49,574 nucleotides of DNA from a virus. Of the stretch, positions 1,439 through 45,159 are shown piece by piece. Position 1 is the first letter of the stretch. Each line of letters begins with the position of its first letter. The notes under the pieces were generated by a model. The model ran no database searches and was not told where the DNA came from. It saw only the letters and a list, made by a program, of their open reading frames with translations. The stretch lies in the IMG/VR virus record IMGVR_UViG_3300006990_000045, positions 1 to 49,574 of that record; one strand, written 5' to 3'. The translations under genes and the position numbers were made by a program.

Positions 1439-1591
1439 TTAGCAATCCTTTAAATATTCATCACACCCCTTTTTATCTCCTTCAAAGACTACTTGGTAGT
1501 ATCCTTGGTTGTCTTTATACCAAATTCGGGACTGACCAGACCAAAGAGGTACTATACGATACCGCCCTTTTGTTATCATTCCTTTTATCAT
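1439..1591 (-). CDS. small protein, unknown
   Basis: Start ATG at 1591 overlaps by one base the TGA stop of the upstream DnaA-like gene (TGATG), a typical coupled arrangement. It runs 50 residues to TAA at 1439-1441. After MIKGMITKGRYR come IVPLWSGQSRIWYKDNQGYY and VVFEGDKKGCDEYLKDC, a clean aromatic-rich sequence that looks like a small beta domain (resembling small SH3-like or WW-like folds by eye only). An internal ATG at 1579 is an alternative start. The minus strand is open here, whereas the longer plus-strand reading frame over this region crosses two minus-strand genes and is judged spurious. Confidence 0.6.
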   Translation of the reverse strand: MIKGMITKGRYRIVPLWSGQSRIWYKDNQGYYQVVFEGDKKGCDEYLKDC

Positions 1592-2121
1592 CAGTGTTGG
1601 TACATTTTGTTTTTAAGGTCGAGAAGATACTCTTTTCTTTTTTGCCAGAACTCTATTCTTTTATCTGTGTAAGAAATTTGCTCAAAAACCTTATCCATTT
1701 CTGTCTTGAAGGTGCCTTGTGGTTCTCCCGATATTTCCTCCATGTCAAGGTACGGATTTTCTTTGTTAGCAGCTCTAAGAGCCTCTACAACAGCATCAAT
1801 GACTCTAACCACCTCTTCCGTAACCCCCATAGTCACATACCCGTTTACCTTTTTCTTTGCGTGAAGTACAGTAGCGTGGTCTTTGTTTATGAACTTTCCA
1901 ACGGTGGAGCAATTAATCCCTAGATGCACATGGCAAACGTACATGAAGGCGTGTCTTGCGGCAATAACAGCAGAGTACCTTGTCTTAGCTTTTATCTCAT
2001 CCTCTTCTATCTCTGATATAAAGGAAACAGTTTTAAGCACTGTAGCCATCTTTGTTTTCATAAGACCTAATTTCATTGCTCTTAAGTCTTCTGTCTGTTC
2101 GTTTAAGTTAGTTAGATTCAT
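1591..2121 (-). CDS. DnaA domain IV-like DNA-binding protein
   Basis: 176 residues. Positions 49-92 carry the helix-turn-helix signature of DnaA domain IV: YSAVIAARHAFMYVCHVHLG, then GKFINKDHATVLHAKKKV at 75-92, matching the DnaA pattern G-x-x-F-x-x-(R/K)-D-H-(T/A)-T-V-L-H-A. The AAA+ domain of DnaA is absent, since only about 48 residues precede this region. The C-terminal 80 residues are helical and charged (KRIEFWQKRKEYLLDLKNKM). DnaA domain IV recognises DnaA boxes, so a likely role is origin binding or interference with host DnaA. It sits in the early minus-strand operon, overlapping the upstream gene by 14 bases. Confidence 0.75.
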   Translation of the reverse strand: MNLTNLNEQTEDLRAMKLGLMKTKMATVLKTVSFISEIEEDEIKAKTRYSAVIAARHAFMYVCHVHLGINCSTVGKFINKDHATVLHAKKKVNGYVTMGVTEEVVRVIDAVVEALRAANKENPYLDMEEISGEPQGTFKTEMDKVFEQISYTDKRIEFWQKRKEYLLDLKNKMYQH

Positions 2122-2936: not shown

Positions 2937-3147
2937 TTTTGTAATGCTTAATTAATCGTTTTAATGTTTCTTGCGCCTTTAGTAAGTCCTCTAATCCATT
3001 CTTGTCTTTATATCTGGTGATGTACTTTATACAATTTCCTTCAAGTAATCCAAGGTCGTTAGCTAAACAGAAGTCGTAGACATCTATCTTGCTTTTGTAG
3101 TGCTTAGGCTTTATTGGGTTCGTTTCTTTTTCCCGTAAATCTTTCAT
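2923..3147 (-). CDS. DUF3310 family protein (SaV-like)
   Basis: 74 residues with the compact DUF3310 pattern: PKHYK near residue 14, a DVYDFCLAND stretch, then EGNCIKYITRYKDKNGLEDL and KAQETLKRLI. The family is common near replication genes of many phages and has been described as nucleotide-kinase-like, but its function is not settled. This is the first gene of the leftward early operon. Its ATG at 3147 lies only four bases after the -7 box of the predicted promoter, so the mRNA may be leaderless. Confidence 0.8.
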   Translation of the reverse strand: MKDLREKETNPIKPKHYKSKIDVYDFCLANDLGLLEGNCIKYITRYKDKNGLEDLLKAQETLKRLIKHYKNESN

Positions 3148-3151
3148 TCAG

Positions 3152-3181
3152 CAAACATAAACATCTTTTCAACATAACAAA
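3152..3181 (-). promoter_or_regulatory. host-like leftward early promoter
   Basis: On the minus strand the sequence reads TTTG (3181-3178), 18 bases, then TATGTTTG (3159-3152). This matches the Bacteroidetes vegetative consensus TTTG-N17-19-TAnnTTTG. The -7 box ends four bases before the ATG of the first leftward gene, so transcription would start at or very near the start codon. It is back to back with the rightward promoter at 3204-3238. Confidence 0.65.
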
Positions 3182-3203
3182 AAGAAAAGTTGGGAAATAA
3201 ACC

Positions 3204-3238
3204 TTACACGCCCAATTAAAAAATATTTTGTACTTTTG
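3204..3238 (+). promoter_or_regulatory. TTACA-type phage promoter (ncRNA/leader)
   Basis: TTACA at 3204-3208, 22 bases, then TACTTTTG at 3231-3238. This is one of seven such sites in the window; the other six have exactly 21 bases between the boxes. It faces a region without genes and a terminator about 115 bases downstream. Confidence 0.6.
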
Positions 3239-3242
3239 TATC

Positions 3243-3361
3243 TTCTTGGCGGGGGGCAACGAAAAAAAAGGATATATTTGGAGAACCATCTAGGTTACCA
3301 TCTAAGCCCTCGCAGTTCGTTGTCTTCGCCGAGAACGTATGGAAAGCGGGGGCTTTTTTTT
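3243..3361 (+). ncRNA. predicted short terminated RNA / attenuator leader
   Basis: Bounded by the promoter ending at 3238 and the hairpin-plus-T-run ending at 3361, giving a transcript of about 115-120 nt with no convincing reading frame. Two alternative pairings of its 5' end are visible. TTCTTGGCG at 3243-3251 can pair with CGCCGAGAA at 3327-3335, inside the terminator loop (a pseudoknot). GCGGGGG at 3249-3255 duplicates the right arm of the terminator and can pair with CCCTCGC at 3307-3313, its left arm. The second pairing would act as an antiterminator. It may be a free regulatory RNA or an attenuated leader for recA, 385 bases further on. Structures were judged by eye. Confidence 0.5.
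3304..3361 (+). terminator. rho-independent terminator
   Basis: AAGCCCTCGC (3304-3313) pairs with GCGGGGGCTT (3346-3355), ten pairs including one G-U, around a 32-base loop. It is followed by an unbroken run of T to 3361. No gene ends just upstream, so it terminates the short RNA read from the promoter at 3204-3238. Confidence 0.75.
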
Positions 3362-3689
3362 GCACCCCAAAGGTGTCAGGGCAATCGGTTAATTCCTCCC
3401 TGTTCTCCACTTATAGGTGGATTGATTTAAAGGTGAAATTTCAAACACCGAGCAACGGAGTTTTATTGTGTCTCCGTTTATGTCATTAAAATCAAAAACT
3501 ACTTATCGAAAGGTTGGCAACACTTTCCTGCGATAGGGGCGTCCGAATCGTACCGAAATAAACTCATCGGGAAGAGACTCGTCTGTTGAGCTGTTTTGCT
3601 TCTTTTTCCTTTGGGGGCGGGGGCAACACTTTTCTTCAGGCAACCTCTCCAAAACCTCTAAAATCTATCAGAAAGAGTTTGAATATTCC
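3362..3689. other. non-coding divergent region with hairpins
   Basis: No gene is seen. It holds AACGGAG/CTCCGTT (3454-3478, 11-base loop) and a longer hairpin with CTTATCGAAAG (3502-3512) against CTTTC and GATAGG (3523-3537, small bulge). There is also a G-rich tract around 3611-3626 (GGGGGCGGGGGCAAC). The string GGCAACACTTT occurs twice (about 3516 and 3624). A structured recA leader or a replication origin are both possible. No recognisable DnaA-box cluster was found. Confidence 0.5.
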
Positions 3690-3720
3690 TTGATAATCTG
3701 CCGTAAAGTTAGTATATTCG
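3690..3720 (+). promoter_or_regulatory. candidate recA promoter (TTG type)
   Basis: TTG at 3690-3692, 20 bases, then TATATTCG at 3713-3720, one base off the TAnnTTTG box. It lies 25 bases upstream of the recA ATG and resembles the host-type promoters of the leftward genes more than the TTACA type. Confidence 0.4.
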
Positions 3721-3745
3721 TAGCTTACGACTCACAACAAAACTT

Positions 3746-4672
3746 ATGGCTAAAGAACAGAAAAAGAGTATCTTAGATAAATACCCTAGTGTTAAGAACA
3801 GAGAGGTAGAAAACGTTAAACGTTTTAGTTCCCAAAGTATTTCTATTGATAAAGCACTCGGTGGGGGATACCCTAGAGGTAGGGTTATAGAAGTTTACGG
3901 ACCTGAAAGTTCAGGTAAGACAACTATCTGTTTACATGCCATTGCAGAACTTAACAGAAAAAAAGAACGGGTTGCTTATGTGGATACTGAACACTCGTAT
4001 GAGCCAATCTATGCTGAGAGCATAGGGGTGGTTCCTGAGCTATTCCACCTTGTACAGCCAGACTCTGCTGAAGAGGCACTACAGACTATGGTTGCTATGG
4101 CAGAAAGTGGGGAGTTTAGTGCTATTGTTTTGGACTCTGTTGCTGCTCTTGTCCCCTCCGCAGAATTAAATGGGGAGGTTGGAGACTCCACTATTGGACT
4201 TGTTGCTAGACTTATGAACCAAACCCTTCGGAAGATTACAGGACCAGCATCTAAGACAGGGACTACTCTCTTTTTTATCAATCAGTTACGAGACAGGGTT
4301 GGTGTTATGTACGGAAGTCCTGAGACTACTACGGGAGGAAAGGGGTTGAAATTTTATGCTTCTATTCGTCTTGATGTTCGTAGGCAAATAGACAAAGACA
4401 AACCAACAGACAACGTAAGGGTAAAGGTAGTAAAGAACAAGGTTGCTCCTCCTTTTGAGTTGGCAGAGTTTAAGGTTCGTTATGGCGTTGGCATTGATAG
4501 GGTTAACGAAATACTTAACGAGTGTGTACTTTCTGGGGTAATTCAAAAAAATGGAAGTTGGTTTTCTTATGGGGAGACTAAGTTAGGTCAGGGAGAAGAA
4601 TCTGTTTCAGAGTTACTTCGAGATAACCATGAGTTATTTGAGGAACTGAAAGCTAACCTTACATCAGATTAG
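3746..4672 (+). CDS. recA: RecA recombinase
   Basis: 308 residues, shorter than cellular RecA (about 350) at both ends. Walker A is GPESSGKTT (52-60). The catalytic glutamate lies in VDTEH (Glu82), and Walker B is AIVLD ending at Asp130. The L2 region NQLRDRVGVMYGSPETTTGG, starting at 179, is nearly the cellular sequence. RecA forms ATP-dependent filaments on single-stranded DNA and drives strand exchange, which in a phage supports recombination-dependent replication and repair. The acidic C-terminal tail of bacterial RecA is reduced to a short charged end (LRDNHELFEELKANL). The gene follows the structured leader at 3.2-3.7 kb. Confidence 0.95.
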   Translation: MAKEQKKSILDKYPSVKNREVENVKRFSSQSISIDKALGGGYPRGRVIEVYGPESSGKTTICLHAIAELNRKKERVAYVDTEHSYEPIYAESIGVVPELFHLVQPDSAEEALQTMVAMAESGEFSAIVLDSVAALVPSAELNGEVGDSTIGLVARLMNQTLRKITGPASKTGTTLFFINQLRDRVGVMYGSPETTTGGKGLKFYASIRLDVRRQIDKDKPTDNVRVKVVKNKVAPPFELAEFKVRYGVGIDRVNEILNECVLSGVIQKNGSWFSYGETKLGQGEESVSELLRDNHELFEELKANLTSD

Positions 4673-10866: not shown

Positions 10867-11277
10867 ATGAAACGAACTCCACTGAAGAGAAAGACAAGGT
10901 TGAAATGCCAAAGCAATCTGAAGAGGACAGGGTTAAAAAAGGTATCCCAAGCAAGGGCAAAAAGGGAACGGGCGAAACACAAGGCTTATGAAGAAATCGA
11001 CAAGAAGTGGGATGGAAAATGCAAGGGGTGTGGTGAGTCTTCATGGACGGCAGGTCCAATACATCACTCTCACCTCATTCCCGAGAGTGTTCGAGCAGAC
11101 CTTGCGGCAAATGAAGAGAATCTCACCTTTCATTGTATCCCGTGCCATTTAAAATGGGAGGTAAATTCTCCAAAGGCGTCAGAGATGTTAGACTACCGAG
11201 AGAACCTTGGACGTCTTAGAGAATTAGATTGGGATTATTATTTAAAATTTAAAGAAAAGCATAACAGGAATGAGTAG
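10867..11277 (+). CDS. HNH endonuclease-like protein (NinG-like start)
   Basis: 136 residues. The very basic N-terminus (MKRTPLKRKTRLK) is typical of phage NinG and related zinc-binding proteins. Then come C-K-G-C (52-55), IHHSHLIPE (65-73), Asn85 and FHCIPCH (88-94). Two CxxC pairs and the HH/N/H residues define a zinc-stabilised beta-beta-alpha metal nuclease. Such proteins cut or nick DNA during packaging, recombination or as homing enzymes. It stands immediately before GroEL and overlaps that gene by 8 bases. Confidence 0.8.
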   Translation: MKRTPLKRKTRLKCQSNLKRTGLKKVSQARAKRERAKHKAYEEIDKKWDGKCKGCGESSWTAGPIHHSHLIPESVRADLAANEENLTFHCIPCHLKWEVNSPKASEMLDYRENLGRLRELDWDYYLKFKEKHNRNE

Positions 11278-12895
11278 AGAAGTGGATAAGAACGCAAAGG
11301 AAACAATGCTTATTGGTGTTAACATGGTGGCTGACCCAGTTGCATCAACTCTAGGCGCACAAGGTAAGCTAGTAACTATCAGCACTAAAGACCAAACCGT
11401 TCCTGACGGACAAGGTGGGTACAAGATAGTCAGAGGAAAGGCTATAACAACCAAAGATGGTGTTACGGTAGCTAAGGCAGTAACAAGCGACGAGCCTAGA
11501 ACAGAGGCGGGGATACGCATGATTAAGGAGGTCGCAGAGAAGACTGTTGAAGAGGTAGGAGACGGGACGAGCGGTAGTACCATCCTAGCAAGGTACATGA
11601 TGAACGAAGGTGTTAAAGCTATTAACGAAGGTGTAAATCACGTAGACTATTGTAACGGAATACAACAGGCTGTAATAGCAGTAACAGAAAAAGTAAAAGA
11701 ACTTGCTAAACCTGTAGACTCCCAAGAACTTGCCACTAAGATTGCTACTATTTCCGCAAATAATGATGCAGAGTTAGGGGGTCTCATTGGAGAGGTGTTC
11801 GGTCAAATAGGTCTAAACGGCGCGGTTAGCATCGAGGAAGGAACAGAGTTTGAAACTACGTTCGACGTAGTAAAGGGTATGGCTATCTCTAGCGGGTACA
11901 TAACTCACCACTTTATAAATACTTACAAAGGAGAGTGCGTTCTTGAGAATCCTATCATCGTGCTATTCTCGGGAGAGGTAAACACGGTAAACGAAATTAC
12001 CAACGTCTTAGGTAAGGCTATGCAAGCCAAAAGACCTCTTCTTTTAATCGCAGACATTCAAAACGAAGCACTAGAAACAGTTATCGTGAACAGGGAGCGC
12101 GGAGCGTTAGATGTTTGTATTGTTAAGCCACCATCAATGGGAAGCACAAGAGATGACCTCATGCGAGACATTTCTGCTGTTACTGGGGTAGAGTACATTA
12201 CCAAAGCCCAAGGTCGTAAGTTCAGCGAGATTGAGCCAAACCTAAGCGGGGGTGCTTCTAAAGTTATCGTGTCTAAGAACGATACTAAGATTGTAGGTGG
12301 TTTCGGAACAGAGGAACAAATCGCACAAAGAAAAGAGGAACTGGAAGAAAACCTTAAGCAAGCAAAGAATAAGAAGTGGTTGAAAAGCCGTATCTCAATG
12401 CTTGAGGGTGGTGTGGCTAGAATCATCGTAGGGGGAAAAACAACCTCAGACATGAAAGAAAGATACGACAGGGTAGAAGATGCTGTGTTGGCTACTCAGT
12501 CTGCGGCTGAAGAAGGATATGTAGCAGGAGGAGGAAGTACGTTCAGACATATTGCCCTAAACGAGAAGAAAGCGTTTAACGCAAGTGGCTATAACCCCGA
12601 CTTCATTAAAGGGTATAACTTAGTACTAGAGGCTTGCATTGAACCTGAGAACACTATTCTTAAGAACGCAGGGCAGGTGCATGAGGAAACCTTTTTAGAT
12701 AGGTTATTCCCGCCGAAGCAAACGGAACAGCAAGAATACGGGTATGGTTTTGATGCAAAGGAATACGAAACAAAAGTAGACTTAATTGCGCGAGGAATCA
12801 TAGACCCTGCAAAAGTATTAGACAGATGCTTAAGAAACGCATCTACAAATGCAATTACACTGCTCAAGACAGATTTCTTGATATTTGACAAGTAA
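11270..12895 (+). CDS. groEL: GroEL-type chaperonin, phage-encoded
   Basis: 541 residues, full-length compared with E. coli GroEL (548). The ATPase aspartates are kept: TKDGVTVA (Asp63, equal to Asp52), GDGTSGSTIL (Asp98, equal to Asp87) and RVEDAVLATQ (Asp404, equal to Asp398), followed by EEGYVAGGG. The C-terminal IIDPAKVLDRCLRNA matches the equatorial domain end. Differences include LGAQGK for the usual LGPKGR nucleotide loop, GYITHHF in the apical substrate groove (His for Tyr203, Phe204 kept), and no Gly-Gly-Met tail. The protein should form a folding cage, most simply for capsid or other virion proteins. Chaperonins are known in a few phages but are rare. The gene overlaps HNH and is followed by an exonuclease; its cochaperonin may be the protein at 5,208. 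Confidence 0.95.
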   Translation: MSREVDKNAKETMLIGVNMVADPVASTLGAQGKLVTISTKDQTVPDGQGGYKIVRGKAITTKDGVTVAKAVTSDEPRTEAGIRMIKEVAEKTVEEVGDGTSGSTILARYMMNEGVKAINEGVNHVDYCNGIQQAVIAVTEKVKELAKPVDSQELATKIATISANNDAELGGLIGEVFGQIGLNGAVSIEEGTEFETTFDVVKGMAISSGYITHHFINTYKGECVLENPIIVLFSGEVNTVNEITNVLGKAMQAKRPLLLIADIQNEALETVIVNRERGALDVCIVKPPSMGSTRDDLMRDISAVTGVEYITKAQGRKFSEIEPNLSGGASKVIVSKNDTKIVGGFGTEEQIAQRKEELEENLKQAKNKKWLKSRISMLEGGVARIIVGGKTTSDMKERYDRVEDAVLATQSAAEEGYVAGGGSTFRHIALNEKKAFNASGYNPDFIKGYNLVLEACIEPENTILKNAGQVHEETFLDRLFPPKQTEQQEYGYGFDAKEYETKVDLIARGIIDPAKVLDRCLRNASTNAITLLKTDFLIFDK

Positions 12896-44944: not shown

Positions 44945-45159
44945 TAGGTTTCTGTGGGTTTTCTGTCGGGTGGCGTGTCGTATTTATTAATACGTCTAAA
45001 AAACGGGGATAAGGACAAGACTTACATCTCGTAGCCCCCCTATCCCCGATATATTTCACCAGAGAACCATCTTTACCCTCTCCAACAATCTACCAAGTAA
45101 TGGGCTGTTGTTGTTAATTATATAAATGATTCAATAATAATAGGCCCGAAGGCTTTACT
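44945..45159. other. convergent non-coding region with hairpins
   Basis: Lies between the last plus-strand gene and the SSB gene on the minus strand. CGTATT/AATACG (44979-44994) forms a six-pair hairpin. CGGGGATA (45004-45011) pairs perfectly with TATCCCCG (45041-45048) around a 29-base loop. GCC/GGC around 45145-45155 gives a weak hairpin next to the SSB stop. GATATATTT and GAGAACCATCT at 45048-45072 recur in the RNA region at 3271-3291. Bidirectional termination is the simplest role. Confidence 0.5.

Follow-up and report, generated by a model that had tools for sequence, protein, structure and literature searches.

Two competing predicted folds in a short non-coding RNA upstream of recA in a podovirus-like phage

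Introduction

In the PR′-6S RNA-tR′ late leader of phage lambda, a rightward operon is preceded by a short RNA that ends at a terminator. In the pT181-type plasmid attenuator, as outlined in the excerpt of PMC4878617 used here, the antiterminator captures the terminator stem on its 5′ side. Among phage RNAs, Gifsy-1 IsrK and the P4 CI RNA possess a terminator and occur in short and read-through forms (excerpt of PMC4825925); the HK022 put RNA, ~70 nt in length and folded into two stem-loops, binds the polymerase and acts on distant terminators (excerpt of PMC9378689). Within a limited literature collection, no paper on RNA control in Bacteroidota phages was found.

The window, i.e. the whole stretch of DNA analyzed (49,574 bases), is the virus record of a podovirus-like phage, the terminase and portal of which are ~23–27% identical to those of Flavobacterium and Cellulophaga phages. 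Similar to the lambda leader, a short terminated RNA would precede the rightward operon of this phage; unlike in lambda, several structural blocks have candidate promoter boxes of their own. With the pT181-type attenuator the locus shares a 5′ leader that may adopt either an antiterminator or an intrinsic terminator (PMC4878617, same excerpt); it differs in that the 5′ end takes the terminator loop, the stem-arm pairing having a probability of 0.0 and its partner being lost in the related contig L002, and in that the leader is free of an antisense promoter box (consensus scan of 3148–3760, the sole minus-strand box being situated at 3152). A terminator and complementary copies located upstream or downstream are common to IsrK, P4 CI (PMC4825925, in the part cited) and the present locus, whereas two cellular forms, processing, trans action and the lysogenic switch belong to the former and the leader described here is known from sequence alone. 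Compared by description only, put resembles the leader in being structured, in its position at the 5′ end of a phage transcript and in its potential to favor read-through (PMC9378689, as excerpted); unlike for put, the effect at the present locus would be a local competition. The attenuator frame is thus a known one that fits in kind, the unusual feature being a competitor that takes the terminator loop.

Genomic context and promoter boxes

The divergent gap 3148–3745 is situated between a leftward operon of the replication type, encoding a DUF3310 protein, a DnaA domain-IV protein and an exonuclease, and a rightward operon in which recA comes first, followed by the terminase and virion genes. 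The following features are referred to below:

3152–3159, minus strand: candidate −7 box of the leftward (replication) operon, TATGTTTG; matches TAnnTTTG, conserved in L002
3204–3238, plus strand: candidate promoter of the RNA, composed of TTACAC (3204–3209), 21 nt and the −7 box TACTTTTG (3231–3238); TTACAC and −7 box identical in L002
3243–3263, plus strand: 5′ arm of helix P1, beginning at the predicted transcription start; pairs in the folds with 3316–3335 (20 bp, one bulge)
3273–3280, plus strand: a further TAnnTTTG box within the RNA, TATATTTG, aligned with TATCTTTG in L002
3304–3313, plus strand: terminator left arm, AAGCCCTCGC; identical in L002, inside the P1 loop when P1 forms
3316–3335, plus strand: 3′ arm of P1, within the terminator loop, according to folds and duplex energy
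3346–3361, plus strand: terminator right arm, GCGGGGGCTT (3346–3355), and U tract; L002 has the same arm but a shorter U tract
3362–3640, plus strand: conserved non-coding stretch with a predicted multibranch fold (closing helix 3365–3373 with 3608–3616, inner helix 3422–3428 with 3486–3492)
3713–3720, plus strand: candidate own −7 box of recA, TATATTCG, from the motif scan; identical in L002, 26–33 nt before the start codon at 3746
3746–4672, plus strand: recA, a RecA/UvsX-like recombinase of 308 aa (Pfam RecA, 1.1e-87; phrog_97)

The promoter that the first-pass annotation had placed at 3204–3238 was confirmed in its −7 box: TAnnTTTG, the −7 consensus in Bacteroides (PMC7366714, in the sections used), was commoner than chance in this genome (72 observed versus 48.4 expected; none of 100 shuffles reached 72), and such boxes precede several structural genes. 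The published upstream element is TTTG at −33, which the TTACAC at 3204–3209 does not match; according to the same sections of PMC7366714, no −33 motif was identifiable in Flavobacterium johnsoniae. From the position of the −7 box, the RNA is predicted to start at ~3243. The leftward box lies so close to the start codon at 3147 that the 5′ UTR of that operon would be very short or absent. The box at 3273–3280 may represent an internal start, a pause site or a chance match; an RNA begun there would be devoid of the 5′ arm of P1, so that its termination could proceed unhindered. The motif scan revealed no promoter box between 3281 and 3712.

The region is carried by three contigs, i.e. the window itself, L001, which matches it at 99.9% identity, and L002 (~90%). 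L001 and L002 were the only contigs with this region recovered with RecA and TerL queries, TerL and RecA alignments, DNA patterns in viral contigs and genome contigs: all of the 80 TerL-family loci were without the region, its comparison with 159 loci (nhmmer/blastn) yielded nothing above chance, and blastn against phages gave chance-level matches only. Rfam 15 had no match in the window at gathering score and no aptamer in the leader, the four weak matches in 3148–3745 (up to E 5) being far below gathering scores. An apparent copy of the RNA near 45,050 was rejected, as its score of 42 was no better than others among 450 stretches (top score 46). Between window and L002, identity amounted to 93% in 3148–3242 and to 56% in the 5′ part of the RNA, 38% in the terminator loop and 100% in the terminator left arm, with flanks of at least 90%. 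Within the 7 kb compared, low identity was confined to two islands, the RNA and the DnaA domain-IV protein (encoded at 1591–2121, minus strand), which is 70% identical in L002 versus 93–98% for its immediate neighbors. The longest run identical to L002 in these 7 kb comprises 194 nt (2725–2918) inside the gene 2562–2936, and a phage-encoded GroEL-like chaperonin (11270–12895; phrog_5725, 6.4e-109) is 97% identical in L002.

Terminator hairpin and P1 helix

The strong terminator reported within about 120 bases of the promoter, with no gene between, was found as described: a terminator-like hairpin with a 10-bp stem, a 32-nt loop and eight T (3354–3361) is located ~118 nt after the predicted start, and 3243–3360 contains no convincing gene but only mechanical ORFs (ORF listing). 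In L002, the U tract of the hairpin consists of six T. The G+C-rich hairpin with U tract that a terminator/antiterminator attenuator requires is therefore present in both phages; the terminator scan did not list the 3304–3355 hairpin, its rule accepting loops of 3–8 only. The comparison of the window and L002 sequences revealed no leader ORF with a conserved ATG, which makes translational coupling unlikely. An apparent long-loop hairpin followed by six T is also present at the end of the leftward operon (~44990–45052, minus strand).

Pairing between the RNA 5′ end and the terminator loop, proposed earlier over 9 bp, was corroborated and extended to the 20 bp of P1. The fold of the 118-nt RNA was not equaled by any of 200 shuffles (z −3.62) and was better on the plus than on the minus strand (−43.4 versus −32.2). 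The duplex of the 5′ 25 nt with the terminator loop reached −28.6 kcal/mol in the window and −24.0 in L002, in each case with none of 5000 shuffles as good; the window statistics of P1 are post hoc, and L002 constitutes the independent test. Genomic pairs of equal geometry were as good as the P1 duplex in 9 (window) and 8 (L002) of 20,000 cases, and window and L002 ranked first and second among 81 long-loop terminator-like sites (these two and 79 others retrieved by one pattern). When the arms were swapped between the two phages, the duplex energies dropped to only −13.4 and −11.1: each 5′ arm fits its own loop only. The covariation expected in a related phage was indeed observed, the P1 of L002 being situated at the same place with 16 pairs; with the pairs of the two helices matched one by one, counting inward from the outer end, 10 of the 16 were changed on both sides, four on one side and two were unchanged. 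Part of the L002 helix is a GA/TC repeat.

A second pairing had been postulated, in which GCGGGGG (3249–3255) takes the terminator left arm CCCTCGC (3307–3313). This pairing was not borne out: its equilibrium probability was 0.0, it appeared only transiently in the first 76–80 nt of the window RNA, and L002 lacks the 5′ GCGGGGG, a loss of complementarity that the first-pass annotation itself had named as speaking against it. Of the idea that competing structures decide between termination and read-through, P1 and the identical terminator arms thus stood in L002, whereas the second pairing did not.

Competition between the folds

In nested folding, P1 and the terminator were mutually exclusive in both phages. 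The P1 fold was more stable than the forced terminator fold, with −43.4 versus −34.2 kcal/mol in the window and −31.2 versus −28.8 in L002, and in stepwise folding P1 was present from nt 92 on in both. An alternative fold that excludes the terminator is therefore conserved in a relative, on two sequences and within a nested model. At equilibrium, the terminator had a probability of 0.0 in the window; in L002, P1 prevailed in the short RNA (0.82–0.91; terminator 0.09) and the balance was reversed in the read-through RNA (terminator 0.93; P1 0.06). The balance point therefore differs between the phages, and P1 of the window is so stable that any switch would need a strong factor. Equilibrium values were relied on for P1, the terminator, the closing helix and the distal pairing only, those of small hairpins being possibly misplaced (first string matches). 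A pseudoknot of P1 with a shortened terminator could undo the exclusivity; full coexistence is unlikely in L002, since the three bases between P1 and the terminator right arm are too few to span a 16-bp helix; a shortened P1 may instead combine with the terminator in a pseudoknot.

The short non-coding RNA with its two competing folds probably represents a genuine switch or a regulatory RNA, and the two sequences support a terminator/antiterminator geometry. Our favored reading, held tentatively and with slightly less than even confidence, is a bistable attenuator-like leader whose transcripts would either end early at the terminator or extend into a long read-through RNA. According to this model, transcription would start at ~3243 and the first ~21 nt would pair with the future terminator loop, giving rise to P1 as antiterminator; P1 would be complete at ~93 nt, before the terminator right arm (nt 104–113) exists, and would enclose the terminator left arm in its own loop. 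Once P1 has formed, the polymerase would read on into 3362–3690 and then into recA; with the 5′ arm held elsewhere (by a protein or an RNA, or through a start further downstream), the terminator would form and an RNA of ~118 nt would be released. Actual termination, a regulation of the choice, an effector and a purpose of the long RNA are presumed in this scheme; that the choice between the folds is regulated, we infer by reasoning. The attenuator reading is favored because P1 covaries, each 5′ arm fitting its own loop while the terminator arms stay identical, and because the folds exclude each other (nested) and P1 precedes the right arm in stepwise folding; it is weakened because there are effectively two sequences, L002 being the sole divergent one, and because the L002 helix is in part the simple repeat. 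Its more specific form, in which the emerging 5′ end would seize the terminator loop instead of a stem arm and thereby choose between a ~118-nt RNA and one of at least ~450 nt with a multibranch domain, the letters of P1 changing fast and its pairing being kept, appears unlikely. A covarying antiterminator combined with a frozen terminator would represent a compact, directly testable leader.

The main rival, less probable than the attenuator-like leader and yet to be taken seriously, is a free, stable regulatory RNA of ~118 nt, for which the terminator would be no more than the 3′ boundary (if required, in a pseudoknot with a shortened P1); P1 would protect the 5′ end from decay, and the variable loop and inner part would engage a target. 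In Bacteroides, canonical intergenic sRNAs characteristically combine a promoter with an intrinsic terminator (PMC7366714, in the sections used); the strong overall fold would suit a free RNA, and a region of low identity flanked by conserved sequence one with a specific target. However, no good complement, i.e. none above background, was found at the 17 gene starts tested in the window, the full 16-bp P1 and the terminator could hardly coexist in L002 given their 3-nt link, and this reading would not account for the conserved non-coding sequence downstream of the terminator.

The conserved stretch behind the terminator

The region 3362–3690 was 94% identical to L002 (recA 91%, terL 92%), contained a run of 136 nt (3454–3589) without any difference, ranking second in length within the 7 kb compared, and had no ORF of note in the ORF listing. 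Read-through into recA, as proposed initially, is weakened by the conserved box TATATTCG and by the ~330 nt of conserved non-coding sequence between the terminator and that box; since recA has its own candidate −7 box, it would not need read-through. Any RNA copy of the stretch would probably arise by read-through; if there is none, the stretch is a DNA element. The fold of 3362–3640 differed little from shuffles (z only −0.83). In the centroid fold built from the window only, none of the 13 substitutions fell in pairs (4 of 275 shifts were as low), compared with four of 13 in the MFE fold (36 of 275 shifts) and three of 13 in the MEA fold (29 of 275); all 17 differences were unpaired in a fold that was built from both sequences and is thus biased. 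In the whole-leader fold, the closing helix reached a probability of 0.976 in L002 and of 0.0 in the window, which counts against a firm domain model, and the fold depends on the length folded; a multibranch domain at 3362–3640 is plausible, with modest support. Ten of the 12 matches to a closing-helix pattern (all but L004 and L005) were rejected because of unrelated contents. The stretch is a candidate for either an undescribed structured RNA or an origin.

A DNA-level element, i.e. a replication origin or packaging site whose hairpins or G-rich runs act in the DNA or in an R-loop primer, is regarded as improbable. The GC skew changes its sign here, between the divergent operons, a DnaA domain-IV protein is encoded nearby, three of seven GCGGGGG and four of 20 GGCAAC of the plus strand fall in this region, and the 136-nt run is identical in L002; however, the skew change also tracks gene direction, the 5′ G-run is lost in L002, and DnaA boxes (at most one mismatch to the consensus) numbered 94 genome-wide versus 118.6 expected, with no exact one in 3148–3745.

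Comparably improbable is a two-form RNA that acts in trans on its own transcript in the manner of P4 CI RNA or Gifsy-1 IsrK: the short RNA would bind the long one, its terminator left arm pairing with the distal GCGGGGG (3617–3623), and would thereby set termination or activity. This second, downstream partner of the left arm is also present in L002, and fast-changing sequence would suit self-specific recognition, whereas the probability of the distal pairing in cis was 0.0 in the window and 0.005 in L002. That P1 is a coincidence at an ordinary terminator between divergent operons is highly improbable, since P1 recurs in L002 with other letters, even if such arms occur in unrelated phages (L006–L008, rejected as homologs because they carry ordinary short-loop terminators) and a hairpin with a long loop apparently closes the leftward operon as well.

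Within the conserved stretch, GGCAACACTTT is present at 3516–3526 and 3622–3632, 106 bases apart, and is absent elsewhere in the window; both copies are kept in L002 and are possible protein sites.
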